DNA from: Saprospiraceae bacterium
Lineage (GTDB): Bacteria; Bacteroidota; Bacteroidia; Chitinophagales; Saprospiraceae
Assembly (NCBI GenBank): GCA_022841745.1
Contig: JALHQW010000041.1
Span: 1-42,090, forward strand
Direction: 5' to 3'
Length of the DNA: 42,090 bases
Positions 1,482 through 22,671 of this stretch are shown here, one piece after another. Positions within the stretch are counted from its first letter, which is position 1. Every line of letters starts with the position of its first letter. The notes under the pieces were generated by a model. It saw only the letters and a program-made list of their open reading frames with translations. It searched no databases and was not told where the DNA came from. The position numbers and the translations under genes are program-made.

Positions 1482-1554
1482 ATTGCTTGATTGTTGCCAT
1501 TGTTTGATTGTTATCGGAGCCACAACAATCCAACAATTATAGCAATCAAGCAAT
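1482..1554. repeat. Imperfect inverted repeat of ATTG/TTGATTG phrases between porU and porV
   Basis: Left arm: 1482-1493 (ATTGCTTGATTG) and 1499-1512 (ATTGTTTGATTGTT). Right arm: 1524-1537 and 1543-1554. The outer 12 bp pair perfectly and the inner 14 bp pair with one mismatch, separated by a 5-base internal loop. The arms are built from repeated ATTG and TTGATTG phrases. The flank at 1555-1560 continues the phrase and contains the porU stop codon (1558-1560). One of four elements of the same design in the window. Confidence 0.8.
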
Positions 1555-1557
1555 CAA

Positions 1558-4500
1558 TCATTTCAAAATCACCAATTTTTCAAAGTCGCTCTCGCCTTCC
1601 AGCACTGTTTCGCCGGTGTTGACACTCCTGACTTTTACTTTGTAGAGGTAAACTCCTTTGGCGAGCGGGTCGCCGTAGTCGTCCCTGCCATCCCATTGGA
1701 TGCCATCACCTTTGCCTAAACGGTACCCTGTGGAAATTATTCTCTCCTCCAAAGTTTTTATCAATCTTCCCGAAACAGAATAAATCTGCACCATCACATC
1801 CATCTCCGTGCCCGATTGGTTATGTTCGAACAGGAAGTACGTGGAAGTCGTGAAAGGGTTCGGGTAATTTAGCACATGCTCCAGCGCCACCTTTTCCGAA
1901 TTCGCCACCACGAACTCCGTGTAGCCCTCGGCGGGGTTGTTGGCGATGTCCCATGCTTGTATCTTGATTTCGTGCCTTCCTTCGGCGAGGGCATAGAAGG
2001 GGTAGCGCACCTCACCTTTCGTGTAATCATCGAGCGCAGCTTCGTAGAAATCGTTGAGGCTGTACGTGTTCTGCGAGTTTTTATCCAAAATACCTGCCAA
2101 GTCGTGCCCAACACTGTTTCCGATGACGTTGATGCCGTTGTCATCTTCCAATTTTACCAATAGAACGGGGTTCGGACTGGTGATGCCACCAAAGACGAAG
2201 TTCTCGTTGTTCATGAAAACGTCCACTTTAGGCCCTTGGTCGTCGGCGAGGGCATTGGGGTCGGTGCCGCCCACGATGATGCCCTTGTAATTGCCAGCGG
2301 CGTCCTCCATTTTGGTCTCGTCAGCGGCGTAGTAGCTCAGTTTGCAATTGCCGAAATTGTAGTCAATATCCTTTGGCACTACAAATGTGAACTTGAACTT
2401 ACCGCCTGTCACGCTGGCCCTTCCTTTGAAGATGGTGTTTTTTTGGAGGTCGAAATCGAACAGGGGCGTAGCTTGCCCAAGCGTCCGATACTTGATGGAT
2501 TTGTCGTAAATCGTTGGGTACACCACACCGTTGAAGTTGGTCATCAAGTTGCCCGTACCATCGTGTACCTCTCCTTCGATGGTCACTTTCTGCAGGGCAC
2601 GGATGGTATCAATCGCGGCTGTATCAATGGGGCGGCCATTGACGCTGGTCGTCACCACTTGTTGGTTCGGGAGCGCCAGCTTCTGCATGGGGTCACCCAG
2701 CAGGGTGAATTTCTGGGTGTTGTCGGTATTGCCTTGTTTGTTCTTGCTGAGGCGCAGCACTTCGCCGATGGTGGGTCGCTCATCATTCAGCTTATAAAAC
2801 AACGTGTCCACCGCAGCCTCTGTCAAGTCGGCATTGGAGGAAGCAAAAACGGGGCGGGTTGTGGTATAGAGTGCAATCGCCCCACCTTTTTCGTTGAGGA
2901 TGCAAAGCTCGCCCGCCGTGGTGGAGGTCGGGTCGTCGTAGCCAGCGAACGAGCAGGTAGCCGTGATGATGATGGGCATTTTTTCGAGGTTGCGCCAACC
3001 GAGTATGTCTTCTATTTTCAGCACCCGCTCCTGTGTCCAACCCTTGGTACCACCGTGGCCCAGGTATATCATCGCCAGCACGCCTTTGAAAATATTGTTG
3101 TTGATGGCATCCGTTGCCAAAGGCACCCGCACCCCGCCGAAAGTAGAGAGTTGCGGATACACATCCAAATAGATTTTATCGAGGTTCAAATTGGGGTTTT
3201 TGCTGGATATTTTCCTTGCAATGGAATCGGCATCATCGGTGTGGAGGTTGCCATCCTCATCGTCGCCCACGAAGGCCACCCGATTGCGCCAGTCTCTCAG
3301 GTTGGTGGGGTCCACGTCGTAGCGGATGATTTTGTCCACCACGTTCTTGGCCTCGTCCTCGTCCTTCACGGGGAGGCGGCCCACGGAAATATCGAGCGAA
3401 CCAGTGCCGAGGTTTTGGCCCTCGCCATCGCTCAGCAGCGTGAAATAGTCGTCAGTGGGGTAGGAGAAAATCGGGCTGACGGACTGCGGGGTTTCGAGGG
3501 TTGGAACGTAGTCGCCACCGAATTTATAGATGTCACGGCTGTCGAAAGAGGCATCGCCAAAGAGCAGTACAGCCTTGAAGCGGTCTGGCTTGCGGTCGTA
3601 GAGCATACGGGCGAAGTCACGGATAGCGGTGGCATCTTTACGGCCGCTGGAAAACTCGTTGTACAGTTTTTCAACGTCAACCGTGGCGACGTTCAAGCCA
3701 CTGAACGAGCGGCGGTGCTCGGCTAAACGCTCGGCATGTGCGGCGAAGTCCTTGTGATAGATGATGGCCATGTCCACGTCGTCAAAGCCGTGGTAGTTCT
3801 GGTTTTCGACTTTGCCGACGGGCTCCGCTGTGAGGAAGCCATTGTTGCCGAAGGCAATAAACTCGACCAGCGTATCGGTGGCTGCGCCAAAGCTGAAGCC
3901 AGTACCGCTGAGGCTGCCTTGCTGGCGCTTGGGCTGGAGTGGGTCGGTAATGTCCCAAACGCTTAGGTTGGCATCGGCACCGCCAAGGTTGAAGGTGCTA
4001 ACGGGGTTGCCCATCGAGCGGAGGTCACGGAAGTGCATCTGGTCGCCGACCATTAAGAGCTGACGGCGCAGGTTCAGTTCGATGAAGTCGAGCCAGCCTT
4101 CGTTGAAGGTGTTTTCTGGCCGGTTGAACTTGAGTTGGATGCTGAGGTCGCCGCTCGTGGGCGTGAAATCGTTGTTGATGCCGACGATGCTGGCATAGGT
4201 GTCAGTGGTGCCGCCAGCGGTCTTGCCGAACGAGCCGCTGGTCATGGCTTTGCCATTGGCGGTGATAACGTAATTGGCATTGCCACCGCCCTGCTCGATG
4301 CGGGCCGCAAAAACGGCAGCTAATTTTATCGGTTCATTGGGCACGATGTTCGGCACTTGCAGTTCCTCGCTGAAATCGTCCTCGGTGGTCACTTTGTAGA
4401 AGTCGCTGAAGTACTGGCGGCCTGCGCCTTGGGTATAGGCCCAGTCGTGCAGCAGGTTGTATTTCTCGTTTTCGTAGCGGACGAAATCGCTGAAAGTATT

Positions 4501-5415
4501 GGTGGAGTAGGTAGCCCCGGTGAGCGAGGCTTGGTCTTGGATGCGGAGGCCGTTGGCGCCACCTGTTTTGATGAAATAAAAGTTTTGGAGGGAATAAAAA
4601 TTCTTGGGGTAGCTGAAGGTCTGCTTTGCGTTGTCGAAGTACCAAATGTCGGCGCCTTGGCCGTAGAACAGGATGTAGTCGTCGCTGTCGAACTTGCCGT
4701 CATCCTCGCCCACCACTTGGATGGCGTTCTCCACAAGGTCATCGGCACGGGGGGCGTCGGCGAGCTCTGGGAGTATACCGCCGCCGTTTCCATATAATTT
4801 AATGGTGCGTGGGTCAATGCTTTCGAGCGGCAGGCCCAGCTTGTTTTTCAGGAAGTCAAAATCGAGCTTGTGTACGCCCGTTCTCTCCACGCTTAGCTTG
4901 TAAATATCGCCCTCGCTCAATACGGAGGTAAAGGTGTTGCCGCCCCGTGGTTTACCGGGCAAGGGTTTTGGTGCAAAATCAAGCCGAAGTTCAAAAGCCA
5001 CTAATTTTTCAAGGCTGGCCCCTGTGCGGCGGATGGGCATGAACATCACCCGGCCATAGTATTGGCCCCGTTCGTTTTCCACGGAGGTGATAATGCTAAT
5101 TTGCTCCGCAATGGAGGCGTCGTCGGCACTTGGCGTTTTTACCAATGGCTCAAAACTCATGTTGCCGAAGGAAACTTGGAACTCGCCATGCGACGGCAGT
5201 TCGAACCGTTCGGTATAATAAGGTAGCGAGCTGACCTCGGCCTTGTAAATGGCACCATCAAACCTAAGAAAGGGAATGGTCGCTGTGCTTTCCTCGAAAG
5301 GCATCACCATTTTTTCATCGTGCCATTTTAGGCTGCGCTGCACGGTACTGGGAGGTGTAGCAAAGGAAATGGCTGCAAGGAGCAGTGCAAGAATGGATGT
5401 TGTTGTTCGCTTCAT
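1558..5415 (-). CDS. porU: Type IX secretion system sortase PorU (C25 gingipain-like peptidase)
   Basis: PorU removes the C-terminal sorting domain of type IX cargo and attaches the cargo to surface lipopolysaccharide. The frame is open to 5460. I prefer the ATG at 5415, which puts a short basic segment before the hydrophobic signal sequence (TSILALLLAAISFATP) and gives 1285 residues. The C25 catalytic pair is visible: His in YLGHGGTKGW (residue 802 of the longer form) and Cys in ITATCSFAGYDDP (residue 836), a spacing close to that of gingipains. The C-terminus has a CTD-like fold (VLNYPNPFTTSTYFLFEHN, ending YLYKVKV...FEKLVILK), as PorU proteins do. It lies upstream of porV on the same strand and is divergent from the PorP-like gene. 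Length (about 1200-1300) is normal. Confidence 0.93.
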   Translation of the reverse strand: MKRTTTSILALLLAAISFATPPSTVQRSLKWHDEKMVMPFEESTATIPFLRFDGAIYKAEVSSLPYYTERFELPSHGEFQVSFGNMSFEPLVKTPSADDASIAEQISIITSVENERGQYYGRVMFMPIRRTGASLEKLVAFELRLDFAPKPLPGKPRGGNTFTSVLSEGDIYKLSVERTGVHKLDFDFLKNKLGLPLESIDPRTIKLYGNGGGILPELADAPRADDLVENAIQVVGEDDGKFDSDDYILFYGQGADIWYFDNAKQTFSYPKNFYSLQNFYFIKTGGANGLRIQDQASLTGATYSTNTFSDFVRYENEKYNLLHDWAYTQGAGRQYFSDFYKVTTEDDFSEELQVPNIVPNEPIKLAAVFAARIEQGGGNANYVITANGKAMTSGSFGKTAGGTTDTYASIVGINNDFTPTSGDLSIQLKFNRPENTFNEGWLDFIELNLRRQLLMVGDQMHFRDLRSMGNPVSTFNLGGADANLSVWDITDPLQPKRQQGSLSGTGFSFGAATDTLVEFIAFGNNGFLTAEPVGKVENQNYHGFDDVDMAIIYHKDFAAHAERLAEHRRSFSGLNVATVDVEKLYNEFSSGRKDATAIRDFARMLYDRKPDRFKAVLLFGDASFDSRDIYKFGGDYVPTLETPQSVSPIFSYPTDDYFTLLSDGEGQNLGTGSLDISVGRLPVKDEDEAKNVVDKIIRYDVDPTNLRDWRNRVAFVGDDEDGNLHTDDADSIARKISSKNPNLNLDKIYLDVYPQLSTFGGVRVPLATDAINNNIFKGVLAMIYLGHGGTKGWTQERVLKIEDILGWRNLEKMPIIITATCSFAGYDDPTSTTAGELCILNEKGGAIALYTTTRPVFASSNADLTEAAVDTLFYKLNDERPTIGEVLRLSKNKQGNTDNTQKFTLLGDPMQKLALPNQQVVTTSVNGRPIDTAAIDTIRALQKVTIEGEVHDGTGNLMTNFNGVVYPTIYDKSIKYRTLGQATPLFDFDLQKNTIFKGRASVTGGKFKFTFVVPKDIDYNFGNCKLSYYAADETKMEDAAGNYKGIIVGGTDPNALADDQGPKVDVFMNNENFVFGGITSPNPVLLVKLEDDNGINVIGNSVGHDLAGILDKNSQNTYSLNDFYEAALDDYTKGEVRYPFYALAEGRHEIKIQAWDIANNPAEGYTEFVVANSEKVALEHVLNYPNPFTTSTYFLFEHNQSGTEMDVMVQIYSVSGRLIKTLEERIISTGYRLGKGDGIQWDGRDDYGDPLAKGVYLYKVKVRSVNTGETVLEGESDFEKLVILK

Positions 5416-5778
5416 TTTCTTGGAATTGACAGGAAATTTTTGGCTTCGGTACATCGCCATAATTTGAGACGGCTTAAAAACGTTAGGATGGGGTTACTAT
5501 GTTGCAGGAGGTTTTTTTAACAGAACCCGTTTTTTTTGAAAACTGGGCAGCTTTCATCCTGTTATGGTTGCGAAACCTGCTGAAAATCAATGGGTTGTAC
5601 GGTACGATATGGTTTTTGGAAATGCCAAGGGGCTTTTTCGGGAATTGACCAAGGCCGACAATTAAAAAAAAACTTGACCGACATCAGTTCCTTTTTCCCA
5701 TTTTTACATTTCCGCTTCGGGTGCGAAGTTCGCAATTAGCAGCTTTCTGCCAGCGGTAAAAACCGTAAACAAAGGTCA
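5416..5778. other. Divergent intergenic region between porU and the PorP-like gene
   Basis: This A/T-run-rich spacer contains no credible gene. It must carry the promoters of both divergent genes. The best -7 candidate towards the plus-strand gene is TACATTTC at 5705-5712, a 7/8 match to TAnnTTTG. A TTG lies at 5674-5676, but 28 bases away, which is too far for a standard pair. The leader after the box is about 66 bases. No strong minus-strand box was recognised. Confidence 0.4.
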
Positions 5779-6816
5779 ATGACAAGACAAATATCCAAAC
5801 TTACCGCCCTGTTTGTGTTCGCTTGTGCCATTGCCCAGGCCCAAGACCCCCTGTTTAGCCAGTTCTATTCGACGCCCCTTGTGTTGAATCCGGCCTTTGC
5901 CGGTACGACCTACTCCCCACGCATTTCGGCCACCTACCGCAACCAATGGCTTGGATTCGCCGAGCAAGGCACGCCTGTTTATGCCACCTATGCGGCTTCT
6001 TACGAACAATTCGTGCCAGCATTCAACAGTGGTTTCGGTGTCTTGGTTGTGGCGGACGACGCTGGCGGCGGCATTTTGAAGACGACCAGCTTTGCCGCCA
6101 ACTACGCCTATCGCATCTCTACGGAAGGTTTCAACGTGCGCCTTGGCGTTAATGCCGGCTTCAAGCAATCGAATATTGACTGGGACAAGCTCGTGTTTCT
6201 CGACCAGCTCGACCCCATCAATGGCCCGCTTGACCCCTCCGGAAACCCCAATATCAGCAACGAGGTTCGCCCAGCCGACGTGTCGAAGACGCTATTTGAC
6301 GTGGGCGCTGGCATTTTGGCCTATACCGATAAATATTATGGTGGTGTCTCCCTCCAACACCTGACCACCCCTAACGAGGGGTTCTTCACCACCAATACCA
6401 GCCTGCTCGACGGCTTGCCACTGCGCACCACCATTCATGCGGGGGCAGAGTTTATTGTTAAAAAAGGCAATAAGCGTAACCCATCGTCGTTTGTTTCTCC
6501 GAACATCCTTTTTGCGAAGCAGGGCGACCAAGGACAAGTAAACGTGGGGGCATACTATAACCTTGGCTTAGTGTTTTTCGGGGGGTGGTTCCGCCATGCC
6601 TTCGGCAATGCAGATGCGGTGATAGGCTTAGTGGGTGTTCAGTACGATATTTTGAAAATTGGGTACAGCTACGATTTTACGCTGGGCAGCGGCTTGGCTG
6701 GGCCTACGGGCGGTTCCCACGAGATTTCGTTGGTGATAAATTTTGACCAAAGCGAGAGAACCAAGGCAAAACGGAAGGCGGAACGCTACAATGACTGCTT
6801 CCAAATCTTCCGTTAA
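5779..6816 (+). CDS. PorP/SprF family type IX secretion outer membrane protein
   Basis: This 345-residue protein has a signal peptide (about 1-21, ending AIAQA) and the family signature QDPLFSQFYSTPLVLNPAFAG directly after it. A predicted barrel follows, including a strand-rich end with IGYSYDFTLGSG and the PorP-typical SGGSHEISL-like segment (here TGGSHEISLVINF). PorP/SprF proteins anchor or assist particular type IX substrates or the PorK/N ring. Several paralogues usually exist per genome, so I do not assign porP or sprF. It sits between divergent porU and gldJ, all type IX related. The 145-base gap to gldJ contains a possible gldJ promoter. Confidence 0.9.
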   Translation: MTRQISKLTALFVFACAIAQAQDPLFSQFYSTPLVLNPAFAGTTYSPRISATYRNQWLGFAEQGTPVYATYAASYEQFVPAFNSGFGVLVVADDAGGGILKTTSFAANYAYRISTEGFNVRLGVNAGFKQSNIDWDKLVFLDQLDPINGPLDPSGNPNISNEVRPADVSKTLFDVGAGILAYTDKYYGGVSLQHLTTPNEGFFTTNTSLLDGLPLRTTIHAGAEFIVKKGNKRNPSSFVSPNILFAKQGDQGQVNVGAYYNLGLVFFGGWFRHAFGNADAVIGLVGVQYDILKIGYSYDFTLGSGLAGPTGGSHEISLVINFDQSERTKAKRKAERYNDCFQIFR

Positions 6817-6915
6817 TTCATTTTTTTTGGCCAACCCCACCTATAAATCAGGTAGTGTGGAAAAACAATGATTGTTAAAAACCGAAGTAGGCCGAAAAAA
6901 TGAAAACTACTTTTC

Positions 6916-6923
6916 TATATTTG
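6916..6923 (+). promoter_or_regulatory. Candidate -7 box (TATATTTG) for gldJ
   Basis: TATATTTG matches TAnnTTTG exactly. It lies 40 bases before the gldJ ATG, leaving a leader of about 35 bases that is very A/T rich, as expected for translation initiation in Bacteroidota. No TTG element is found at the usual distance. Confidence 0.4.
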
Positions 6924-6963
6924 CACGTCTTTTTTTCAAAGTAAAAATTTTTATAAAAAAGTG

Positions 6964-8466: not shown

Positions 8467-8490
8467 ATAAGAGCGATTCTTCGCTTTCGC

Positions 8491-8531
8491 AAAAAAGTCC
8501 CCGTTTCACATCGAAGCGGGGACTTTTTTTT
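8491..8531 (+). terminator. Rho-independent terminator after gldJ
   Basis: GTCCCCG (8497-8503) pairs with CGGGGAC (8517-8523), extended by flanking A and T runs, and is followed by eight T residues (8524-8531). This is the most classical terminator in the window and it ends gldJ transcription 25 bases after the stop. Confidence 0.85.
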
Positions 8532-8550
8532 AAGGCCTATTTATACAATT

Positions 8551-8706
8551 GGTTCGTGAGGTTTCAGGTTTCAAGTTTCAGGGAAGCGTCTGCTGAAATC
8601 ATTTTTTAATCGGTTATAAGGCCAGACCAATCCTTATAGAAAAGCGATTCTTTTGCAATGGAGCAAGAAACCCCGTGAAACCTTAAACTTGAAACCTTCA
8701 CAAACC
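8551..8706. repeat. 156-bp nested inverted repeat of GGTTTCA phrases upstream of murF
   Basis: The outer left arm 8551-8583 (GGTTCGTGA, GGTTTCA, GGTTTCAA, GTTTCAGGG) is an imperfect complement of 8671-8706. Inside it, TATAAGG (8615-8621) pairs with CCTTATA (8632-8638), and AATCG (8608-8612) with CGATT (8645-8649). The whole could fold as one long interrupted hairpin. It fills the gap between the gldJ terminator and the murF promoter box. Confidence 0.75.
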
Positions 8707-8767
8707 ATTATTATGGGCATGTTTGGTATTTCGTCAACTCAGTGCTACTTTTTACTTACCGCCTAAC

Positions 8768-8775
8768 TACTTTTG
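8768..8775 (+). promoter_or_regulatory. Candidate -7 box (TACTTTTG) for murF
   Basis: TACTTTTG matches TAnnTTTG and ends 19 bases before the proposed GTG start at 8795. It lies downstream of the inverted repeat, so the repeat would not be in the murF transcript made from here. The box also lies inside the longer murF frame, which supports the later start. No -33 TTG was found. Confidence 0.4.
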
Positions 8776-8794
8776 TCCCTCTAAAATTGACACC

Positions 8795-10102: not shown

Positions 10103-10353
10103 AACCAGCAGCTTTGGCCATTGAAAGCAGCTATTTAGCGTGAATTATTTGTCGGGATAACAATCCTTGTTTTTGAAAATAATACATTAGCAGGGCCAAA
10201 TCGAAACTGCCTATTCACCATTTGGCAACATAAAAACCAAGTGAAAACATGCTGACCTGCCAATTTCCACCTTCACCGCATCTACGGAAAACCCCAGCAG
10301 GTGCCATTGCCAAGCTGCTGCCAGAAAACCGAGGCAATCCAAACCCCGTTGCG

Positions 10354-13300
10354 ATGGGGTGTTTTGAGCCTAATCTTATCTGCTCCATTTCCCTTGCCTT
10401 GTTTTTGCTTTTTTCGCCCTCGTTTTCCACCCCGCTGCTGGCACAGCCTGCCCTCCCGCCAGTTTCCCACCTCACCGGAAAAGACGGCCTCGGCTTCCGC
10501 CTCAATACCAGCATGGTTGAGGACAAAAGGCGGGGTTTCTTGTGGATTGGGGCGCAGAGCGGCATTTGGCGGTACGATGGCGAGGCGCTGGTGAAGGTGT
10601 ACCCAAAACCTGAAAAAAACGCCTTATCCACGGATACCTACCTTGCCTTCACGCTCTTTTTGGCCGATTCATGGGGCGACGTCTGGTTTTTTGACGACAA
10701 AAAGTGTATCCGGCGGCTGTCGCATACGACCGGGGAAGTCCAGACTTTTTACGTCAGGTCGGAAGGGCGGGATTCGAGCATCACTTTTCAGAATACTTTT
10801 TATATAGGCGGTATGCACGAAGACCGAATGGGGCATATTTGGGCGCACACCACCTCGCATGGCCTTGTCCTTTTCGATGAAAATAAAGGATGTTTCGCCC
10901 CTGTAAGAATGTCGCCAGCCTTCGACGAACCCGGGGGTGCAGGCAAAATTTATGAAGATGCTGAGGGATGGTTTTGGTTTGCATACGATGGGAGGCCGGT
11001 GCGCTACAACCCAGAGACGGGAGAAGCTTGGTCTAACAAAAACAACCCCAAAAAATGGCCCGTCTTTGACCTTCACGCTTCTGCTTTCTTCGTGGATTCC
11101 CAGCAAAGGATGTGGCTTGCCGAGTTCAAACACGGCTACCGATACGACCTGAAAACGCATAAAGTCGAGCAATTGTCAGCAGTTGTCTCAGCTTCCGGGT
11201 TTGCCGAAGATGGACTGGGCCGCATCTGGTTTGGCCGCTACTACAATAATTCTTTGACCTGCTACGACCCCCGCACCGACCATTTTGAACAGTATTATCC
11301 CAATGAAAACGACCCCAATGGCCTGCATATCACCAACTGGATTGCCTTCCTCCAAATAGACAACCGGGGCGTACTCTGGGCACTTGACGTGGCTAATATC
11401 AATGCCTTTGACCCGGTGGCACGGCAGCCATTCCAGCTATTTAAGGAGAACCCCGAAGACGGCGAAAAATCATTGCCGAAGGGCGAAGTGTCGGATGTTT
11501 TTCGAGGCTCGGATGGCCGTTACTACATCTGCTATTGGACAGAATACGGTGGCATAGTTGTGGTTGATTCCAACTTCAAAGTCCAAGAAAAATTGAGTTG
11601 GAAGTTGGATAAAAAAGATTCCCACCGAAATGGTTTTTGGAATTCCATTGAAGACAACGAAGGCAAAATCTGGATTGCCCAGCAGGATGGCCGATTTTGG
11701 ATTTACGATACGGCTACCCATCAAGTCAGGAAAATAGATTGCCCAGAGTTCAAGGGCTCTTCGCCCTACTTGGCCATGAAAGACCGCCACGGCGACCTGT
11801 GGTGGGGGCTTTGGCGCTCGAAGGGCCTCACGAAATGGGACAGCCGCACCAAGAAATTCACCAATTACCCCATCCTTCCAGCCAATCACGGCTTGGTTTA
11901 TAACATTATCGAAGGCGATTCGTCCATTTTTTGGCTCGCCACCGAAACGGGCATCATCAAATTTGACCGCAAAACTGGCCAGTCGCTGCGCAATTCCCTG
12001 CCGCCCAATGCCGACCCAACCAATCGCTTGAAGGAGGTAGTTGTCGGTCTGGTGAAAATCAATGACTCGACGCTCGTCGGTGGCTGCATAGATGGCCTTT
12101 TTGAGTTCAGCCTGAAAACGGAAAAATTCAAGCCCATCCAACCTGAAGGCGGCGAAAAAGCTCCGATGTGCATGTCTCCAATGCTGCTCGACGGCACGGG
12201 TGCCATTTATTATGGCTTTGTGGGCGGCATCGTCCGGTTTTGGCCAGCAACGAAGCGGCTGTCCATCATCCCCCTCACCGAGACGGTCGGCTTTCCTTTT
12301 CAAGGCCGTATTTTTCCAAATTCACTGCACGACGGGCGCTTTGCCATCGGTGCCAACGACCGATTCTTAACGCTCGACATAGCCGCATTACGGAACGAAA
12401 CGCCGCCGCCCGTGCCACGGGTCACGCTGCTATTAGTGGACGGCGACACGCTCGTACTCGGTCGGGACCTCGAAAAAAGCCTCCAATTGCAGCACGACGA
12501 AAACTACTTTTCGTTGAATTTCAGCAGCTTCCTACCGTCCGATGGCCCTGTTAATTATTCGTACCGGCTGCGTGGGCTGCGTGATGGTGACGAATGGAGC
12601 CAGCCGCTCGAAACGCCCTCCGCCCGCTTCACGAACGTGCCACCCGGTACCTATTTTTTTGAAGTTCGGGCGAGTTTTGCCAACGGCCCGCCAAGCGAGG
12701 TTTCTTCATTTTTATTAGAAATCATGCCGCCATTTTGGCAAACTTGGTGGTTTCGCACACTCGCCGCTGCGTTGTTTTTCGGCATCATCTGGCTCATTTT
12801 CCAAAACCGCTTGCGCCAACGTCTCGAAAAAGAGGCCATCCGCCTGCGCATCGCACGGGACCTGCACGACGAGGTCGGCTCCACGCTCACCACCATCTCC
12901 ATCCTCAGCGAGTCGGCGCTGCGCAACGTGGAGGCCGACCTCGAAAAGACCCGACTGACAGGCATCGGCGAAAAGGCCCGCTCGGCCCTGTCGAGCATGA
13001 GCGACATCGTCTGGGCCGTGAACCCGCAGAACGACCCGATGGAAAAAGTGGTGGAGCGCATGACCCGCTTTGCCAGCGAAACGCTTGAAAATGCAGGGAT
13101 TTCACCTGTTTTTAACATCGAAAAAGAAGTTTTCCACCTCGTTTTGCCGATGGAAAAGCGGAAGGATTTCTACCTGTTCTTCAAGGAAGCGACGACCAAC
13201 GTGGCCAAGCACAGCGGGGCTAGCAAGGCGGTTTTTACTCTAAAAAAAGAAGGTGGCCAACTCGTTTTTGAACTGAGGGATGACGGAATCGGCTTGCCCG

Positions 13301-13437
13301 AAACGCAGGAAAGCAGCCTCGGCGGCAACGGCCTGCGCAACATGGCGGCCAGAGCGGAGGCGCTCGGTGCCATTTTTTCAATCAAAAATGGTGCATCATC
13401 AGGAATTTTGGTGCGGCTGACGATGCCAATAGCATGA
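10354..13437 (+). CDS. Two-component sensor histidine kinase with beta-propeller (Reg_prop/Y_Y_Y) sensor
   Basis: This is a membrane sensor kinase with a very large periplasmic input region. The frame is open from 10249. I prefer the ATG at 10354, which starts a clear signal sequence (ICSISLALFLLFSP...LLAQ) and gives 1027 residues. Propeller repeats run to about residue 670 (for example GFLWIGAQSGIWRYDG, GLGRIWFGRYYN, GKIWIAQQDGRFWIYD). Next comes a Y_Y_Y-type domain (NYSYRLRGLRDGDEWSQ...FTNVPPGTYFFEVRA). A transmembrane helix follows (WWFRTLAAALFFGIIWLIF), then a HisKA_3 H-box IARDLHDEVGSTLTT with phosphoacceptor His 838. The ATPase domain has N-box EATTNVAKHSG and G-boxes DDGIGLP and GNGLRNMAARAEALG. 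The kinase is LytS/NarX-like. Its partner is the NarL-type regulator just downstream. The ligand is unknown. Many Reg_prop kinases in this phylum sense glycans, but no polysaccharide genes are seen here. Confidence 0.9.
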   Translation: MGCFEPNLICSISLALFLLFSPSFSTPLLAQPALPPVSHLTGKDGLGFRLNTSMVEDKRRGFLWIGAQSGIWRYDGEALVKVYPKPEKNALSTDTYLAFTLFLADSWGDVWFFDDKKCIRRLSHTTGEVQTFYVRSEGRDSSITFQNTFYIGGMHEDRMGHIWAHTTSHGLVLFDENKGCFAPVRMSPAFDEPGGAGKIYEDAEGWFWFAYDGRPVRYNPETGEAWSNKNNPKKWPVFDLHASAFFVDSQQRMWLAEFKHGYRYDLKTHKVEQLSAVVSASGFAEDGLGRIWFGRYYNNSLTCYDPRTDHFEQYYPNENDPNGLHITNWIAFLQIDNRGVLWALDVANINAFDPVARQPFQLFKENPEDGEKSLPKGEVSDVFRGSDGRYYICYWTEYGGIVVVDSNFKVQEKLSWKLDKKDSHRNGFWNSIEDNEGKIWIAQQDGRFWIYDTATHQVRKIDCPEFKGSSPYLAMKDRHGDLWWGLWRSKGLTKWDSRTKKFTNYPILPANHGLVYNIIEGDSSIFWLATETGIIKFDRKTGQSLRNSLPPNADPTNRLKEVVVGLVKINDSTLVGGCIDGLFEFSLKTEKFKPIQPEGGEKAPMCMSPMLLDGTGAIYYGFVGGIVRFWPATKRLSIIPLTETVGFPFQGRIFPNSLHDGRFAIGANDRFLTLDIAALRNETPPPVPRVTLLLVDGDTLVLGRDLEKSLQLQHDENYFSLNFSSFLPSDGPVNYSYRLRGLRDGDEWSQPLETPSARFTNVPPGTYFFEVRASFANGPPSEVSSFLLEIMPPFWQTWWFRTLAAALFFGIIWLIFQNRLRQRLEKEAIRLRIARDLHDEVGSTLTTISILSESALRNVEADLEKTRLTGIGEKARSALSSMSDIVWAVNPQNDPMEKVVERMTRFASETLENAGISPVFNIEKEVFHLVLPMEKRKDFYLFFKEATTNVAKHSGASKAVFTLKKEGGQLVFELRDDGIGLPETQESSLGGNGLRNMAARAEALGAIFSIKNGASSGILVRLTMPIA

Positions 13438-13445
13438 TGATGTGG

Positions 13446-13523: not shown

Positions 13524-13593
13524 GTTGATAAGGGTTGATGAGGTTGATGAGGTTGATTATCAACCCTTATCAACCTCATCAACCCTTATCAAC
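13524..13593. repeat. Near-perfect palindrome of GGTTGATGA/AAG phrases before the response regulator
   Basis: The left arm 13524-13557 consists of GTTGATAAG, GGTTGATGA, GGTTGATGA and GGTTGAT in series. The right arm 13559-13593 is its complement, with 25 consecutive bases pairing at the outer end and only a small slip near the centre. There is essentially no loop. The same phrase therefore occurs in four tandem copies per arm. It ends 35 bases before the proposed response regulator start. Confidence 0.9.
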
Positions 13594-13628
13594 CAAGCAT
13601 GGGACGGAGTGAGCTACAAATTCATACC

Positions 13629-14252
13629 ATGCTTCGAGTCGTACTATATGAAGACAATTCCGATTTGCGGGCAGCTTTGGCGGCTCTCATCGGCGGCACC
13701 TTGGGCTACGAGTTGGTCGGCTCGTTCGGGCAGTGCACGGAGGTGGTCGGGCAATGCCGGGTGCTGCGGCCCGACGTGGTGCTGATGGACATAGACATGC
13801 CGAAAATGAGCGGCATCGAAGGCGCCCGCCTGCTCAAAAAGGCCATGCCCGACGTGGAAATCGTGATGCTCACTGTATTTGACGACGACGAGCGGGTGTT
13901 CGAGGCCGTGGCAGCCGGGGCCAGCGGGTATTTGCTGAAACAGACGCCACCTGCGCAAATCCTGTCAGCACTGCTCGAAGTGAAGGCTGGCGGCGCACCG
14001 ATGACGCCCGTCATTGCCAGGAAAGTCCTTGGTTTTTCGCAGCAAAAAAAGACAAACGACAGCTTGTTGGATGACCTCTCGCTTCGGGAAATCGAGGTAC
14101 TGAAAGCGCTTGCAAGGGGCCTGAGCTACAAGATGGTTGCCGATGAACTCGAAATCAGTACGGACACGGTGCGCTCGCACGTCCGTAAGATTTATGACAA
14201 ACTGCATGTTCATTCACTGTCGGAGGCGGTGTCGAAGGCTTTTTTGAAGTGA
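13629..14252 (+). CDS. NarL/LuxR-type response regulator
   Basis: This is a cytoplasmic DNA-binding response regulator, 207 residues from the ATG at 13629. An in-frame ATG at 13599 would add ten residues without receiver homology. The later start gives LRVVLYEDNSDLRAAL, the usual beginning of a receiver domain. Phosphoacceptor Asp 54 is in VVLMDIDMPKMSG. The conserved Thr and Lys are in VMLTVFDDDE and GYLLKQTPP. The C-terminal helix-turn-helix is LSLREIEVLKALARGLSYK, followed by EISTDTVRSHVRKIYDKLHV. It lies directly after the propeller kinase, which lacks its own receiver, so the two very likely form a pair. A promoter and a 70-base palindrome separate them, suggesting the regulator can be expressed apart from the kinase. 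Confidence 0.92.
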   Translation: MLRVVLYEDNSDLRAALAALIGGTLGYELVGSFGQCTEVVGQCRVLRPDVVLMDIDMPKMSGIEGARLLKKAMPDVEIVMLTVFDDDERVFEAVAAGASGYLLKQTPPAQILSALLEVKAGGAPMTPVIARKVLGFSQQKKTNDSLLDDLSLREIEVLKALARGLSYKMVADELEISTDTVRSHVRKIYDKLHVHSLSEAVSKAFLK

Positions 14253-16276: not shown

Positions 16277-16446
16277 CTTTGAAATAACTACTATAGATGA
16301 CCTTAACCAATTTACCACACAACGAAAATAGTTGCGATGGATAATGGCATTTTCTCTTCGAATTAAAATACTCAAAAAATTAATCCAAGCTGCACCTTTT
16401 TATTCTACAATGATTAAAGGTTTAGCTTGACAAACCTGATTTAACA

Positions 16447-17868: not shown

Positions 17869-17907
17869 ATCAATTAATTGAATTTTGAAAAATATATCTG
17901 ACATTTA

Positions 17908-17938
17908 GGATTACTAAACTTTCAAAGTTTAGTAATCC
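17908..17938 (+). terminator. Perfect 15-bp inverted repeat after the PKD lipoprotein gene
   Basis: Bases 17908-17922 are exactly complementary to 17924-17938 around a single C, so the true loop must include some of the inner pairs. It lies 40 bases after the stop codon and is followed by TTTC. A terminator role is likely. Confidence 0.6.
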
Positions 17939-18002
17939 TTTCAGGCAAAATGTTGGGTTTATTTTTAAACGTCACCACCTGTTAAAAATCAATAAAATTG
18001 AT

Positions 18003-19040
18003 ATGAAAACCTTTAAATTTTTCTTTGCCTGCATTTTCGCAGGAATAGTCTTTTCTTGCAAAAAAGATGACGACACCAAAGTCATCACGCCGCCGCCTGT
18101 ACCAGATGTATATGTTGCGGGGGAGGAAATAAATGCTCAAGGCGTCTATATTCCTAAAATATGGAAAAACGGGAAAGTCTTTCAAATCCTCTCTGATGGC
18201 TCAGAAGAAGAATTCTTGGCAGATATACAAATATCTCCTAAAAAGGAAGTTTATGCCGTAGGCTGGCAAAGAAAATTCAATGGCCAAAACTATGATGAGA
18301 ATGCTATGATTTGGAAAGACGGCATTGGCACTAAACTTAATATGGGCGGAACCATATTGACGAGAATTGTAGCTCGGGATGTCCACGTTGACTCAAATGA
18401 TATTTATGTTGCTGGGTATATTAGGGGTAATGATTTTTTGTTAGGTGTTGATACGTCATTTGCTGTTTTGTGGAAAAATGGAGTTCCCATACCGCTTACG
18501 GATGGCAAAAAATCTGCTAGCGCAAATTCATTATTTGTGCAGAATGGCGATGTATATGTGGGTGGCTCGGAAGAAAATAGCCAAGGTTATGATATAGCAA
18601 AATTCTGGAAAAATGGTGTCCCAACCATATTGAGCACAAGCTCTGCTGGGGCTGGTTCCATCTATGTAGAGAGCGACGATATCTATGTCTTGTTATTCGA
18701 AGACAACATCCCTAAACTCTGGAAAAACGGGGTCAAAACTAACCTGACTGGTACTCCCGAGGATATCATGGTAGTGGGTACTGACGTTTACATCGCCGGA
18801 AATGAGGGATATATTGCAAAGGTCTGGAAAAACGGTGTCCCCACCAGTTTAAGTGACGGCTTATTTCCTGCGTATGGTCATTCTGTGTATGTATCAGGAA
18901 GCGATGTGTATGTCGCCGGGTCGGAGCAAGGCAGTAACGGGAATAGTACAGCAAAACTCTGGAAAAACGGCGTGGAGGTGCCCTTGGAGCTTGAAGGAGT
19001 AAATGAAGGTTCGTATGCTGTTTCCGTAATGGTAAAATAA
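18003..19040 (+). CDS. WKNG-repeat beta-propeller lipoprotein
   Basis: This 345-residue protein has the lipobox IVFSC (Cys 19) followed at once by KKDDD, a good match to a surface lipoprotein export signal. The mature part has seven repeats of about 40-50 residues. Each ends in an (A/P)K(L/V/F/I)WKNG-type strand (one reads WKDG) and is preceded by a DVYVAG or DIYVAG strand. Seven copies suggest a seven-bladed propeller. Codon use is A/T rich compared with recN, murF or the copper genes, hinting at separate ancestry. The ligand and role are unknown. The neighbours are other secreted proteins, but the spacings do not prove an operon. Confidence 0.78.
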   Translation: MKTFKFFFACIFAGIVFSCKKDDDTKVITPPPVPDVYVAGEEINAQGVYIPKIWKNGKVFQILSDGSEEEFLADIQISPKKEVYAVGWQRKFNGQNYDENAMIWKDGIGTKLNMGGTILTRIVARDVHVDSNDIYVAGYIRGNDFLLGVDTSFAVLWKNGVPIPLTDGKKSASANSLFVQNGDVYVGGSEENSQGYDIAKFWKNGVPTILSTSSAGAGSIYVESDDIYVLLFEDNIPKLWKNGVKTNLTGTPEDIMVVGTDVYIAGNEGYIAKVWKNGVPTSLSDGLFPAYGHSVYVSGSDVYVAGSEQGSNGNSTAKLWKNGVEVPLELEGVNEGSYAVSVMVK

Positions 19041-19174
19041 CTTTTGCTTTGGAGCTTAGGGTGTATCCAGCGGTTTATCCCGATCAATTTGTGTAACAAC
19101 CAAAATAAATTCAACCAAAAAGCCGGATGCCTTTTTTCAAAAAAACGGAAGCTGACTTTAAAAACCCGTCATTC

Positions 19175-19969
19175 ATGAAAAGTAATTCTTTTTCCGTTGC
19201 GATGCTCGCACTTATTTGTGTCTTGAATTCGTCAGTAGCGAAAGCACAAATTTTTGCCGTTCAAACCCCTGTTCTTTCAGTTACCGAACGGCCGTACCAA
19301 ACAGAGACCCACTTTGAGGTTTGCATCTCAGGCGCAAGCCCCAACTCCCTTGTTTTGCTGGAAGCTGTCAACGTGCCACTCACCTCAGAATTAAGGGCGC
19401 AGGTACAGGTCAACAACAACGGGCAGGCTTGCTATATTTTTGTCTTCATCCATTCCCAAAGTTGGTGCGCCCTGACGCCCGCCTATCGTAACGGCATGGG
19501 GTTGATCATAGCCAGAGACGGAAATTCCAACATCCTTGCACAGCAAAATTTTGCCATCAGCAACGTGTTCACTACGCCAGTTGGCGGAGCGACCAACTGC
19601 CCCAACAAATTCGTGGTCAATATCCAAACGGGCGGGGACGGCCTGCGGGGCGGCAGCCAAGCCTTCATCCGTTTTCATTTTCAGGATGGCAGCTACTCCG
19701 ACGAATTCCCGCTCAACAGCGGTGCAAATTGGGCCAACGGCTCTTGGCACACAGCGGCTTTTCCGGTGGGAAGCAACAATCCCGACGCCCTCACCGGCGT
19801 CACCATCCGGCACGACGGCGAGCCAAGAAGCTGGCCCGATGGCTATGACAATTGGAACCTTGACAAAATAACCGTTAATTACAATGATGGGGTGTACCTG
19901 TTTAACGTTGGTAGTGCGCCTTTAGCACGGTTCAAGGGGGAATTGCGCAGCCAATATTTTTCCCGATAG
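19175..19969 (+). CDS. Secreted protein with possible PLAT-like C-terminal domain
   Basis: The frame is open from 19127. The ATG at 19175 gives 264 residues beginning with a normal signal peptide (SFSVAMLALICVL...AKAQ). The first half has no motif I recognise and includes two Cys residues (FEVCIS, QACYIF). From about residue 155 the sequence VNIQTGGDGLRGGSQAFI, then LNSGANWANGSWHTA, and DGYDNWNLDKITV resembles lipase/lipoxygenase-type PLAT beta-sandwiches that bind lipids or proteins. That resemblance is by pattern only. A hairpin follows the stop. No CTD or lipobox is present. Confidence 0.65.
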   Translation: MKSNSFSVAMLALICVLNSSVAKAQIFAVQTPVLSVTERPYQTETHFEVCISGASPNSLVLLEAVNVPLTSELRAQVQVNNNGQACYIFVFIHSQSWCALTPAYRNGMGLIIARDGNSNILAQQNFAISNVFTTPVGGATNCPNKFVVNIQTGGDGLRGGSQAFIRFHFQDGSYSDEFPLNSGANWANGSWHTAAFPVGSNNPDALTGVTIRHDGEPRSWPDGYDNWNLDKITVNYNDGVYLFNVGSAPLARFKGELRSQYFSR

Positions 19970-19994
19970 CGCCTCCTCCGCCTGTAATCATCAA

Positions 19995-20024
19995 ATCGTG
20001 GTGATTTCCAAAAATCACCATGAT
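19995..20024 (+). terminator. 12-bp hairpin after the PLAT-like gene
   Basis: ATCGTGGTGATT (19995-20006) pairs with AATCACCATGAT (20013-20024), with one G-T pair and a six-base loop. It lies 26 bases after the stop codon. There is no T-run, so termination may be weak or the hairpin may only protect the mRNA end. Confidence 0.4.
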
Positions 20025-20052
20025 TGCCAATCTTCAACTAAAATTCTTTAAC

Positions 20053-20538
20053 ATGAAAAACAATTTCATTCTTCTGTTTGCCTGCGCTTGTTTCTTGATT
20101 GCCTGCGGGCAAGAAACGGCGCAAACACCCGAATCTCCCACGGCGACTGCCACCACCAACCCCACCCCCGACCTCCCCCGTGCAAAATCGGGCGAAGAAG
20201 TATGGGTCATCGTTTCCTATATCAAGGCCGATAAAAAAGCCGACTATGAAAAATGGATGAAAGAGGTGTTTTTTGCCGCCCTGCACAAGACGCAAAGCCA
20301 GGTATTAAAAGACCAAATGAAACAAACTCGCTGGCTCGCACCGACAGGACAGAACGAGGACAAGTCCTGGTCTTATGCGTTCCTGATGGACCCCGTGGTG
20401 CAGGGCGGCGATTATGATATCACTTCCCTTTTGAGCAAAGAATATGGGGAAGAAAAAGGCAAGGTTTATTGGGAGCAGTATATGTCGTATTGGGCAAAGC
20501 CCCTTGATGCCCATATCCTGAACCAAGCTGATTTCTAA
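20053..20538 (+). CDS. Small lipoprotein of unknown function
   Basis: The ATG at 20053 (the frame is open from 20020) gives a 161-residue lipoprotein with Cys 18 in LIAC. A Thr/Pro-rich linker (about 20-50) follows. The rest, from EEVWVIVSYIKADKKADYEKWM to LLSKEYGEEKGKVYWEQY, has the look of a small alpha/beta fold. The pattern of an N-terminal beta strand followed by a helix with YEKW resembles dimeric alpha-beta barrel (ABM/NIPSNAP-like) proteins. I cannot confirm this and name no function. It lies 46 bases upstream of the DsrE-like gene, so the two may be cotranscribed. Confidence 0.65.
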   Translation: MKNNFILLFACACFLIACGQETAQTPESPTATATTNPTPDLPRAKSGEEVWVIVSYIKADKKADYEKWMKEVFFAALHKTQSQVLKDQMKQTRWLAPTGQNEDKSWSYAFLMDPVVQGGDYDITSLLSKEYGEEKGKVYWEQYMSYWAKPLDAHILNQADF

Positions 20539-20584
20539 GGCTGTGTTCGATTTTTGAAAACATTATAACCTAAAATCCTTCACC

Positions 20585-21025
20585 ATGAAAACCTTTATCT
20601 TCTTACTTGCACTTCCCATATCTGGAATTTCCCAGTCCACACAAGAAACGGCACCAACAGTGCAGCGCAAAATCTTGGTACATATTACGCAAGGCCCCGA
20701 AAACCCCACACGGGCTGCATTGGGCTTTCTTGTCGCCAAAACTGCGCTCGAAGAAGGGCATACCGTAGATATTTTTTTAGCTGGGGATGCGGTGAAATTG
20801 CTGCAAGACGATGTCCTGAATACCTTGACCGGATTGGGCACCGGAAACCTTCGTGAACACTATGATGCCATCGTAAAAGGCAATGGCAGGTTTTATTTGT
20901 CTGGCAACTCTAGCAAAGCAAGGGGCATGACGGATGCAGATATAAAAGGCAAGCCCGCCGAATTTGCGTTGCCTACGATGTTGGTTCGGTTGTCATTGGA
21001 AAGCGATCGCATGTTCACTTATTAA
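20585..21025 (+). CDS. Periplasmic DsrE/DsrF-like protein
   Basis: This 146-residue protein has a short signal peptide (about 1-17, FIFLLALPISGISQS) and a DsrE/F-like domain: KILVHITQGPENPTRAALGF, LVAKTALEEGHTVDIFLAGDAV, and the C-terminal pattern RFYLSGNSSKARGMTDADI. DsrE-family proteins in sulfur relay use a Cys near this last motif. Here the matching segment is GNSSKARG without Cys, so a sulfur-transfer role is unlikely. Similar Cys-less secreted versions are common in Bacteroidota, with no established function. It follows the small lipoprotein gene closely. Confidence 0.75.
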   Translation: MKTFIFLLALPISGISQSTQETAPTVQRKILVHITQGPENPTRAALGFLVAKTALEEGHTVDIFLAGDAVKLLQDDVLNTLTGLGTGNLREHYDAIVKGNGRFYLSGNSSKARGMTDADIKGKPAEFALPTMLVRLSLESDRMFTY

Positions 21026-21192
21026 TGCGGTGCAATAAAAACATTTCGTGGCCTAAAACCTATGCTTGTACTGCCGATAACTGCTTTAATAGCATACTAT
21101 TAAATCCTAATTATTTATCGAGAAGCCAACCGAGCAATGTGTCAATATGATTCATGCAATGGTTGTTTTCTTATCAATTTATCTTCCCACTT

Positions 21193-22356
21193 ATGAAAGC
21201 ATTTAAGTTTATTTTTCTCATGGCCATGATTGCCGTTTTATCGAACGCTTGCAAAAAGGAATCGAATGACGAGCCAGTCAAAAGTTTTAATTCTGTGACC
21301 GAGGCTTATATGTCAGGTGTCGACCTTAAGAAACTGAAAAGCAGCACCAAAAAACTGACTGCTCCACCCTATTTAGCTAAGGCTAAAACCGCTAGTAACC
21401 AAGTCACCGAGCGCACCGTATTTCCAACCTATTATTCCAGTGCTGAAGCCTTTGCAGCTGCCTGCCCAAACCTCCCCACCGAAGATTTTGAGGAAGGCAA
21501 CGTGGCACCAGGAACAGGTGTTGGTATTCCTGAACCCTTGGATGGGAGCACTAACAACGATTATTTCTCAGCAGGTGACATCCTGCCAGGGGTATCCATT
21601 GGTACACTTGAAAGCCACCCAAATGATGGGATAGCATTGTTTAACAATTACCCAAATGGAATTCCATCAAAGGTTATTTATGCAAACTACTTTAGCGACT
21701 TCCTTATCATTGATTTTACGCAAGGCAATGTCACATCTGTCGGCATGAATATTTACAACATTTTTAGCACCGGCACTACTTATGTTTACGTGTTCTATGC
21801 ATCGGGCGACTTATTCCAATCAACAATCAACGTACCTTCAAATGGCTTGTATTGGGGGGCTGTAGCTGCGCCAGGTGAAACAATAACCCAAGTTATCGTA
21901 TCTTCCCCTGCTGGCCAAGCCGAAGGAATTGACAACCTCTCCTTTGGTACTTGTTCTGCTGACTCGGACAGTGATGGTATCCTTGATGAAGCAGACAACT
22001 GTCCCACAGTAGCCAACCCCAATCAGGAAAACTGCGACGGTGACAGCATGGGCGATGCATGTGACCCAGATGACGACAATGATGGATGTGCGGACGGATC
22101 AGACACTCATCCATGTTCAAACTTGAGTGGCACTGTAGTTATTGATGGTTGCAACTCAACGGTGCCCAATATGTTGGTCAGCTGTGGCAACACCATGTCC
22201 GACCTGATAGGCGATTGCGCCGCCAATGCCAGCAACCACGGCCAGTTCGTTAGTTGCGTTTCTGCATTGACCAATGCTTGGAAGGCGGCAGGGCTGATAA
22301 CTGGAGCGCAAAAATCGAAAATCGTTAATTGCGCTGCTGGTTCGAATATCCCATAG
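21193..22356 (+). CDS. Lipoprotein with thrombospondin type 3 repeats
   Basis: The frame is open from 21154. The ATG at 21193 gives 387 residues with the lipobox LSNAC (Cys 20) followed by KKESNDE, fitting surface export. The central region (PTEDFEEGNVAPG, LIIDFTQGNVTSVGMN) looks like a beta-sandwich of a kind found in adhesins. Then come calcium-binding thrombospondin type 3 repeats: DSDSDGILDEADNCPTVANP, then CDGDSMGDACDPDDDNDG. The C-terminal 70 residues are Cys-rich (CNSTVPNMLVSCGN, DLIGDCAANAS, FVSCVSAL, VNCAAGSN), probably disulfide bonded. Function is unknown; a surface adhesin is plausible. A strong terminator follows. Confidence 0.8.
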   Translation: MKAFKFIFLMAMIAVLSNACKKESNDEPVKSFNSVTEAYMSGVDLKKLKSSTKKLTAPPYLAKAKTASNQVTERTVFPTYYSSAEAFAAACPNLPTEDFEEGNVAPGTGVGIPEPLDGSTNNDYFSAGDILPGVSIGTLESHPNDGIALFNNYPNGIPSKVIYANYFSDFLIIDFTQGNVTSVGMNIYNIFSTGTTYVYVFYASGDLFQSTINVPSNGLYWGAVAAPGETITQVIVSSPAGQAEGIDNLSFGTCSADSDSDGILDEADNCPTVANPNQENCDGDSMGDACDPDDDNDGCADGSDTHPCSNLSGTVVIDGCNSTVPNMLVSCGNTMSDLIGDCAANASNHGQFVSCVSALTNAWKAAGLITGAQKSKIVNCAAGSNIP

Positions 22357-22378
22357 TTGAGCAGTTTTGGCCACAAAT

Positions 22379-22422
22379 ACAGGGTTACGAAGACAAACAG
22401 CTTCGTAACCCTGTTTTTGTTT
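22379..22422 (+). terminator. Rho-independent terminator after the TSP3 lipoprotein gene
   Basis: ACAGGGTTACGAAG (22379-22392) pairs perfectly with CTTCGTAACCCTGT (22401-22414) over an eight-base loop, followed by a T-rich run (TTTTGTTTTTG). It starts 23 bases after the stop codon. Confidence 0.85.
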
Positions 22423-22572
22423 TTGAAAATGGCAGATGCAAGATGATGGTAATCATTCTCTTATTCAAGACTCCCAACCCAGCCCTCATCCTTTGAAAAA
22501 GCTCCAACGATTTGATTTGGCTTGCCTTTTTGCGTTTCAGTCTGCGAAGCCCGTTTTTTTCAAAACAAGCCT

Positions 22573-22580
22573 TACCTTTG
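22573..22580 (+). promoter_or_regulatory. Candidate -7 box (TACCTTTG) for recN
   Basis: An exact TAnnTTTG match 99 bases before the recN start. Transcription from here would place the whole inverted repeat at 22605-22671 in the recN leader. The same TACCTTTG sequence is used before the response regulator gene, which also has a repeat hairpin in its leader. No -33 TTG is seen. Confidence 0.42.
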
Positions 22581-22604
22581 CCCACCAAAATGTTTTAAAA
22601 CTTG

Positions 22605-22671
22605 TTGGTGATTGGTGACTGGTGATTGGTGACTGGGGCAGCCCGACCAATCACCAATCACCAATCACCAA
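22605..22671. repeat. Inverted repeat of TTGGTGA heptamers in the recN leader
   Basis: The left arm holds four 7-base units (TTGGTGA at 22605 and 22612, CTGGTGA at 22619, TTGGTGA at 22626) and then CTGGGGC (22633-22639). The right arm starts with GCCCGACCAA (22641-22650) and continues with three TCACCAA units to 22671. The arms pair with only a few T/C differences. The right arm ends 8 bases before the recN ATG, so it would overlap the ribosome binding region. Confidence 0.9.

Follow-up and report, generated by a model that had tools for sequence, protein, structure and literature searches.

The DNA studied here, which we call the window, is a stretch of 42,090 nucleotides (positions 1 to 42,090 of contig JALHQW010000041.1, assembly GCA_022841745.1) from an uncultured member of the Saprospiraceae, whose genome (G000; G, C and L numbers are our handles for genomes, contigs and loci) comprises 8.43 Mb in 178 contigs. 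It contains four hairpins that a preliminary description, made from the sequence letters, had singled out as inverted repeats with both arms built from a short phrase repeated in tandem. Direct reading of the sequence confirmed all four in place, although site 1 is only loosely periodic. Our best explanation, to which we give a probability of about 0.47, is that sites 1, 3 and 4 belong to a genome-wide population of arrays of 7- to 10-bp units, similar to short tandemly repeated repetitive (STRR) sequences and many of them paired into palindromes. In these arrays the number of units would change by slippage and the phrase by ectopic templated replacement. Site 2 is a miniature inverted-repeat transposable element (MITE). 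The four sites are:

Site 1, 1482..1554: TTGATTG-type hairpin with arms at 1482-1512 and 1524-1554.
Site 2, 8546..8710: MITE with the terminal repeat CAAT(T)GGTTCGTGA and GGTTTCA units, a conserved interior and the flanks TTATA/TTATG.
Site 3, 13524..13593: GTTGATAAG/GGTTGATGA hairpin between a histidine kinase gene (10249-13437) and a response regulator gene (13599-14252, start uncertain).
Site 4, 22605..22671: TTGGTGA hairpin in the recN leader, ending 8 nt upstream of the recN ATG (22680).

Site 1 starts 3 nt beyond the stop codon of a C25 peptidase gene on the minus strand (1558-5460), before porV. Its arms are 31 nt long and 84% complementary, with irregular unit spacing and a weak array score. 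The arms of site 3 are 29 bp long (score 26, period 9) and those of site 4 are 26 nt long, 96% complementary and of period 7. The stem of site 2 is 17 nt long and contains three GGTTTCA-like units, but its loop measures about 98 nt, so the small or absent loop first ascribed to the whole class does not apply to this site. It was detected only at a lower threshold. The inverted-repeat scan lists sites 1, 3 and 4, while the stricter threshold was passed by sites 3 and 4 and not by 1 and 2. At that threshold the window has nine hairpins, two of them sites 3 and 4, compared with 0, 0 and 1 in three dinucleotide shuffles. All thresholds were our own choice, genes were taken as long open reading frames (ORFs) without a gene finder, and all other shuffles mentioned below were single runs per sample.

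The sites are part of a large population. In 800 kb drawn from 40 contigs of the window's own genome we found 128 hairpins, and none in the dinucleotide shuffle. A filter for periodic arms kept 41 of them, of period 7 (23), 8 (16), 9 (1) and 14 (1). The same sample held 125 tandem arrays of period 5-12, again against none in the shuffle, and 78 of these lay outside called ORFs, even though only about 11% of the sample is non-coding by these simple calls. A 1.2-Mb sample gave 165 short tandem arrays, 147 of which had a period of 7 or 8 (100 and 47 respectively). When a single mismatch was allowed within a family, these 147 fell into 32 phrase families, 11 with one member. In the genome the site-4 phrase gives overlapping pattern matches 160 times forward and 105 times in reverse, and its reversed control none; across three phrases, the matches numbered 265, 266 and 369, against 0, 0 and 3 for the reversed controls.

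Sites 1 to 3 also have dispersed homologous copies, in repeat families for which we know of no name. Site 1 has a relative in its own genome at L035:9622. Among the matches listed, site 3 has relatives at ten other places in G000 and at places in other members of the genus. Of 20 further stretches matching it, 16 gave a hairpin of its phrase under the filter and four did not. These 16 hairpins have the phrase in common, but their unit order, unit number and loop vary. A unit of about 7 bp repeated head to tail, in many dispersed copies that lie mostly in spacers, is what describes an STRR-like element, and the arrays here show these features. The view that the sites follow a common design but are not copies of a single transposon stands, while the idea that they lack relatives does not, given the copies of sites 1-3 and the matches of the site-4 phrase. 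Dispersed copies of known repeat families, or a lack of enrichment over shuffled sequence, had been put forward as evidence that would count against a distinct class; dispersed copies exist, though of families without a name known to us, and the enrichment is very strong (128 hairpins against none).

We compared the sites in the window and in loci L059 and L069 with their orthologous positions in other genomes of the genus, giving 81 cases of one site in one genome. Fifty had no array, 28 an array with a different phrase and three an array with the same phrase. Phrases were called the same at a Hamming distance of at most 1 and units of 7 and 8 bp were always scored as different, so the count of different phrases is somewhat inflated. 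Finding an array in 31 of 81 cases compares with 4.6 expected from each genome's own array rate, and, as had been predicted, the phrase changes: 28 of the 31 arrays carry a different one. Two sites, L059:989 and L069:3988 (sister MITE), were left out before the count. The automatic comparison yielded nothing for the recN site and for the L069 sites 14175 and 17062, and one relative only for site 3. At L069:2995, G008 and G009 were scored as having no array, though a degenerate GGCAGTT is visible by eye.

Individual sites show the same pattern. The 11 orthologous spacers of site 1 include a GTTTGATGA array in G011, a TGATGAA hairpin in G007 and a weak array in G010, with no array in G001, G003, G004, G005, G008, G009, G012 or G013. 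The hairpin of site 3 is absent from the one orthologous spacer assessed (G001). L059:8219 carries CTGGATA in its own genome, ATTGGGTT in G001 and G013, and GATTGAC/GATTTAC in G012. The recN leader was compared by eye, outside the 81 cases. TTGGTGA is present in the window's genome and in G001 (L112), a one-armed TCGTAAA array in G008 and G012 and a one-armed array of the CGTCTGC type in G011, while several other relatives showed no clear array by eye. Positions of arrays thus recur between species, in spacers and in loops inside genes, and a relative may have the position occupied by another phrase, in a few instances by two adjoining phrases, or left empty. The comparison supports a picture in which an array stays at a fixed position, or comes back to it, and one phrase gives way to another.

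The replacement extends into protein genes. Of the compared sites, four fall within ORFs: an acyl-CoA synthetase-like gene holds two, and a methyltransferase gene and a MobA-like gene hold one each. An array was present in 15 of their 27 orthologues (1.3 expected), 12 times with a different phrase. The MobA-like gene carries GGCAGTT in G001, G004, G011 and G013, and inspection by eye shows degenerate forms of it in G008 and in G009, a more distant genome. In the window's own genome CAATCCG takes its place, and G012 carries both types, GGCAGTT first and then AATCCGA. G007 and G010 have no array there. The translations stay in frame across the arrays, but the peptides differ. The replacing phrase of the own genome belongs to the family richest in arrays (22 of the 147 in the sample), and G012 has 96+80 matches to it. 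This is suggestive of an abundant phrase replacing another at the MobA site, although from two cases only. In the tree, from which the G002 row was left out because its recN start was wrong, four of the nine inner branches are open; which way any single replacement went is thus an interpretation and not a tested result.

The preliminary description had noted a G-rich 5' arm, and this proved to hold genome-wide. Of 50 periodic hairpins in the own genome, 49 have more G than C in the 5' arm, one is equal and none is reversed; in relatives the G-rich arm came first in 31 of 32. Non-periodic hairpins showed a weaker bias (84 G-rich first against 39, 11 equal). Neighbouring arrays of the same family were convergent in 22 cases, on the same strand in three and never divergent, and those of different families were convergent in four, on the same strand in three and never divergent. 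As a palindrome reads alike on both strands, the order of the arms is a property of the element. It was the same in tandem spacers (20 of 21, one equal), convergent spacers (9/9), divergent spacers (8/8) and inside long ORFs (7/7), and gene orientation therefore does not explain it. At L271 of G011, the orthologue of L059:12248, a G-rich AGGGATG array is followed by a C-rich AACTCAA array, so the polarity is kept across different phrases. Selection near start codons was considered as the cause of the polarity and rejected, the polarity being the same in convergent spacers and inside ORFs. The idea that the arrays form a fence of stop codons, since units of 7 and 8 bp rotate the frame, was also rejected: in the G-rich orientation a stop codon occurs in 13 of the 32 families, compared with 16.6 from shuffled units.

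The lexicon of phrases varies from species to species. Matches to GGATTGC range from 0 (G002, G003, G009 and G010) to 269 (G006), those to GGTGATT from 0 to 265 and those to AAGGATTG from 0 to 369 across the genomes of the genus. The reversed control exceeded the pattern in G010 for GGTGATT (32 against 21) and in G003, G009 and G010 for another phrase. In an order-wide sample of 149 genomes, including the own genome, GGATTGC (at most 2 mismatches) occurred in 23, mostly with few matches, and the reversed control hit five. The many matches of the reversed control in G029 (25+12, order-wide scan) and G010 (18+14) suggest that these genomes use other phrases. Array density also varies, from 138 per Mb in G000 and 150 in G008 (60 kb) to 75 in G007, 8 in G004 (one array in 120 kb) and 0 in G018, while G025 gave two arrays, neither of period 7 or 8. 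The values for G004, G007, G008, G018 and G025 rest on 40-120 kb each, and the stretch sampled from G004 may be unrepresentative, because its whole genome has 41, 41 and 63 phrase matches.

One of the suggestions made in the preliminary description was that selection maintains a structure whose sequence is free. In the form considered here, the arrays would be hairpins at transcript ends or in leaders, acting as terminators, mRNA stabilisers or translation gates. RNA folding of sites 1, 3 and 4 gave very stable structures (z = -8.3, -12.5 and -9.0 respectively against shuffled sequence), and site 4 lies in the recN leader. The hairpins also lie closer to stop codons than uniform placement predicts: the stop-side distance was at most 20 nt in 23 of 40, compared with 18.8 expected (simulated P 0.02), and in roomy spacers six of 20 were near a stop codon, compared with 1.8. 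For cyanobacterial hairpins of similar type, a role in transcript stabilisation or in translational coupling has been suggested (PMC2670836). However, 50 of the 81 orthologous positions have no array, and the recN leader holds one-armed arrays in three relatives (G008, G011 and G012), which does not favour selection for structure. Arrays also occur inside ORFs, the polarity is identical there and in convergent spacers, and sampled density ranges from 8 per Mb in G004, where the stretch may be atypical, to 150 in G008. We consider selected RNA structure unlikely as the explanation, although the closeness to stop codons makes some role at the transcript level possible. By reading, sites 1, 3 and 4 do not have the short GC-rich stem and following T run of an intrinsic terminator, though no terminator scan was made; on the minus strand, site 4 has a run of four Ts after four bases.

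Site 2, the MITE, has arms made of units like those of the arrays. Among the matches listed, it has relatives at seven other places in G000, most with the interior, and others in G011, G004 and G006. No array was found in any of its 11 orthologous spacers, as expected of a recent insertion. A sister MITE family of about 164 bp occurs, again among the matches listed, at 20 places with 95-98% identity and at one with 86%, and the high identity indicates that it was recently mobile. Its copies include:

L069:3974-4137, sister MITE family.
G000 contigs C3, C4, C7, C11, C12, C30, C34, C37, C40 and C42, sister MITE family.
G000 contigs C48, C52, C75, C93, C96, C98, C101 and C114, further places of the sister MITE family.

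The ends of the sister family are CAATGGTTCGTGA or close to it in eight two-ended copies. Both families have terminal inverted repeats and a conserved interior in many copies, and the terminal 13-mer, with at most 1 mismatch, has 71+76 matches in the own genome against 9+7 for the control. Inspected by eye, all eight two-ended copies of the sister family are flanked by short target duplications, as are two of five copies of the site-2 family; at site 2 itself four of five bases match. At L049:152-515 (G000:C19), a MITE-like copy has CGGGTTTT-type octamer arms expanded into arrays of 91 and 180 bp, which illustrates one route from a mobile element to an array.

This raises the question of whether all the arrays are non-autonomous transposable elements of MITE or REP (repetitive extragenic palindromic) type, moved by transposases acting in trans. 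That is true of site 2 and its sister family, many other families have dispersed copies and the genome has nine Y1 transposase matches. The periodic hairpins, in contrast, showed little sign of target duplication, with a flanking match of at least 5 in six of 49 (4.4 expected) and of at least 6 in none. The test is insensitive, because it gave scores of only 3 and 4, below the cut, to two known MITE copies among the periodic hairpins whose duplications can be seen by eye. Non-periodic hairpins had a flanking match of at least 5 in 25 of 134 (13.1 expected). The variation of unit order, number and loop among copies of the site-3 family also argues against transposition of a fixed element. Non-periodic hairpins occur within about 150 bp of the Y1 gene at eight of the nine loci. 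Phrase-like hairpins are found farther from it in L072, L073 and L074, the last of which also has period-5 arrays next to the gene. A transposable origin for the whole class seems quite unlikely. An origin from REP elements and their associated tyrosine transposases (RAYTs) was examined at all nine Y1 loci and rejected, as the gene-adjacent hairpins were of other sequence types. A Y1 (IS200/RAYT-type) transposase match lies just past the end of the window, at G000:C41:42425-42769.

The other suggestion made at the outset was that palindromes are built locally, by fold-back template switching and slippage, with each phrase originating at its own site. Variant units are perfectly mirrored in some hairpins (L067:15912 and L062:10766), a hairpin's own partner arm was its best match in 12 of 43 cases and G-first polarity would fit priming by G/T-rich strands. 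Overall, though, the partner arm ranked at chance against same-family arms of other sites (mean percentile 0.52 +/- 0.06, n=43). On average, the two arms of a hairpin are no more alike than arms of different sites, so the comparison does not in general support the idea that one arm was copied from its partner. The phrases moreover form a genome-wide lexicon, common also across the genus, which an origin de novo at each site does not predict. We consider local building very unlikely. The arm comparison supersedes an earlier one, in which the own partner stood above every other copy in eight of 52 cases and above the mean in 25, as the search spaces there were unequal.

The simplest steps that fit the shared lexicon are slippage and copying from other arrays. 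The number of units would change by replication slippage, and a fragile array might at times be repaired by copying a distant one, through microhomology-driven template switching or ectopic conversion. Such copying would overwrite the phrase and spread abundant phrases. The two arms of a hairpin would keep a common phrase by joint overwriting or joint expansion. The fixed polarity may come from the copying step, for example if only G/T-rich single strands fold back and prime, or alternatively from seeding by MITE ends that can expand into arrays, as at L049. The stable RNA hairpins at gene edges would then be tolerated by-products, with no conserved sequence-specific function indicated. In its strongest form, the proposal is that short arrays at fixed, tolerated positions are overwritten again and again by a repeat-writing process, which uses whatever phrase of 7 or 8 letters the genome has in abundance. 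It would act in spacers and, in frame, in protein loops, and lay down inverted pairs G-rich first. We regard this stronger claim as possible but doubtful.

Several points weigh against slippage and ectopic replacement as the explanation. No replacement was caught in the act. At the junctions between two phrases, inspection by eye found no clear microhomology. The main alternative is independent insertion at a few tolerated positions, which would give much the same table, above all in array-dense spacers, and the expected value of 4.6 understates chance in spacers because it uses genome-average rates. The lack of an array at the MobA site in G007 and G010 means that its history is not one of simple loss or gain. 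Chance-level concordance of the arms neither proves nor excludes joint overwriting. The enzyme that such a process would need is hypothetical, as is the cause proposed for the polarity.

Errors in assembly or binning would be a more trivial source of the pattern. The genomes compared are drafts, repeats are hard to assemble and the closest records by RecN are metagenome assemblies (Saprospiraceae, Saprospirales or Bacteroidetes) with 91-85% identity. However, the arrays lie within single contigs with unique and conserved flanks, the same phenomenon is seen in records of separate projects and misassembly is not expected to keep reading frames. We find an artefact of this kind barely credible.

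The window has further features near the array sites:

8491..8529, plus strand: terminator-like ordinary hairpin just before site 2, outside the array class.
22573..22580, plus strand: TACCTTTG, a promoter-like -7 element upstream of the recN leader hairpin.

A hairpin was reported at the position of the first in all 11 orthologous spacers shown. The -7 consensus of Bacteroidota is TAnnTTTG, and by its likeness to this we take TACCTTTG to be a putative promoter element; the same letters occur in the recN leaders of G001, G006, G007, G008, G009, G011 and G012. Rfam gave no match at gathering score within the window. Positions 1-129 hold a repeat with a perfect 21-bp hairpin (inverted repeat 41-86), which has matches at G000:C12:117767, at G000:C109:131 and in G011. 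More non-periodic hairpins lie at 22373-22420, 33031-33207 and 35630-35692.

Repeats of this kind have been described before, contrary to the first impression that no named element resembled them: heptanucleotide STRR hairpins are known from cyanobacteria and convergent heptamer pairs from Xanthomonas. The cyanobacterial STRRs are, as far as the available text describes them, usually 7-bp intergenic repeats that can form hairpins and whose function is not known (PMC2670836). The units of 7-bp type in spacers here resemble them in forming hairpins. Set against that description, the present arrays have 32 phrase families in 1.2 Mb, 8-bp units about half as common as 7-bp units, and a measured polarity and turnover, though STRRs may share some of these. 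The P6b stem of the Nostoc trnL intron is built of a 7-nt motif, Class I (TDNGATT) or Class II (NNTGAGT), and in evolution one has repeatedly been exchanged for the other (PMC4476775). That account concerns two motifs in one intron stem, whereas here there are tens of motifs at many sites, in protein genes and often with no partner arm.

G-rich heptamers, GGGAATC in Xanthomonas and GGGGA(T/C)T in Nostoc, are dispersed and mostly intergenic, with convergent pairs in 70 and 75 cases in Xanthomonas and only a few in Nostoc, and long Xanthomonas repeats lie at different genes when two close species are compared (PMC4692102). That account deals with one phrase family in each genome, as a former of G-quadruplexes, while most phrases here have no run of three Gs. 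TAACTGA arrays occur near start codons in Beggiatoaceae, some Cyanobacteria and Bacteroidetes, with other heptamers beside them in some Bacteroidetes (PMC4679880). As described there, that system has one phrase, and its repeats in the Beggiatoa genome are direct, with one indirect case. BrickBuilt of Porphyromonas gingivalis is a Bacteroidota MITE containing tandem repeats (PMC4596501), like site 2 and its sister family, but by the same description its units are of 23 nt. Borg tandem repeats are described as recently formed and fast-evolving, in spacers and in genes, where they change the protein sequence (PMC9879509). Their in-ORF units are, by that description, all multiples of three, whereas units of 7 and 8 bp lie inside ORFs here. 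Heptanucleotide elements within and between genes are also reported from Geobacter (PMC2700814).

In the literature searched, which included few subscription papers and so is weak evidence of novelty, we found no genome with tens of such phrases, no polarity rule across phrases and no system in which phrases are exchanged at many orthologous positions, protein genes among them. The kind of repeat is already known; the large lexicon, the strict polarity and the turnover inside genes are the unusual part.

Heptamer repeats occur in several bacterial phyla, and to our knowledge they have no accepted origin. In this genus, close species differ in phrase at many orthologous sites, the polarity is close to absolute and the frame can be read in the cases inside protein genes, which makes the origin and movement of such repeats testable. 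If phrases are overwritten in the way proposed, the identity of the phrase would behave as an allele of the array that spreads, and these bacteria would gain a steady supply of new leader and loop sequences.

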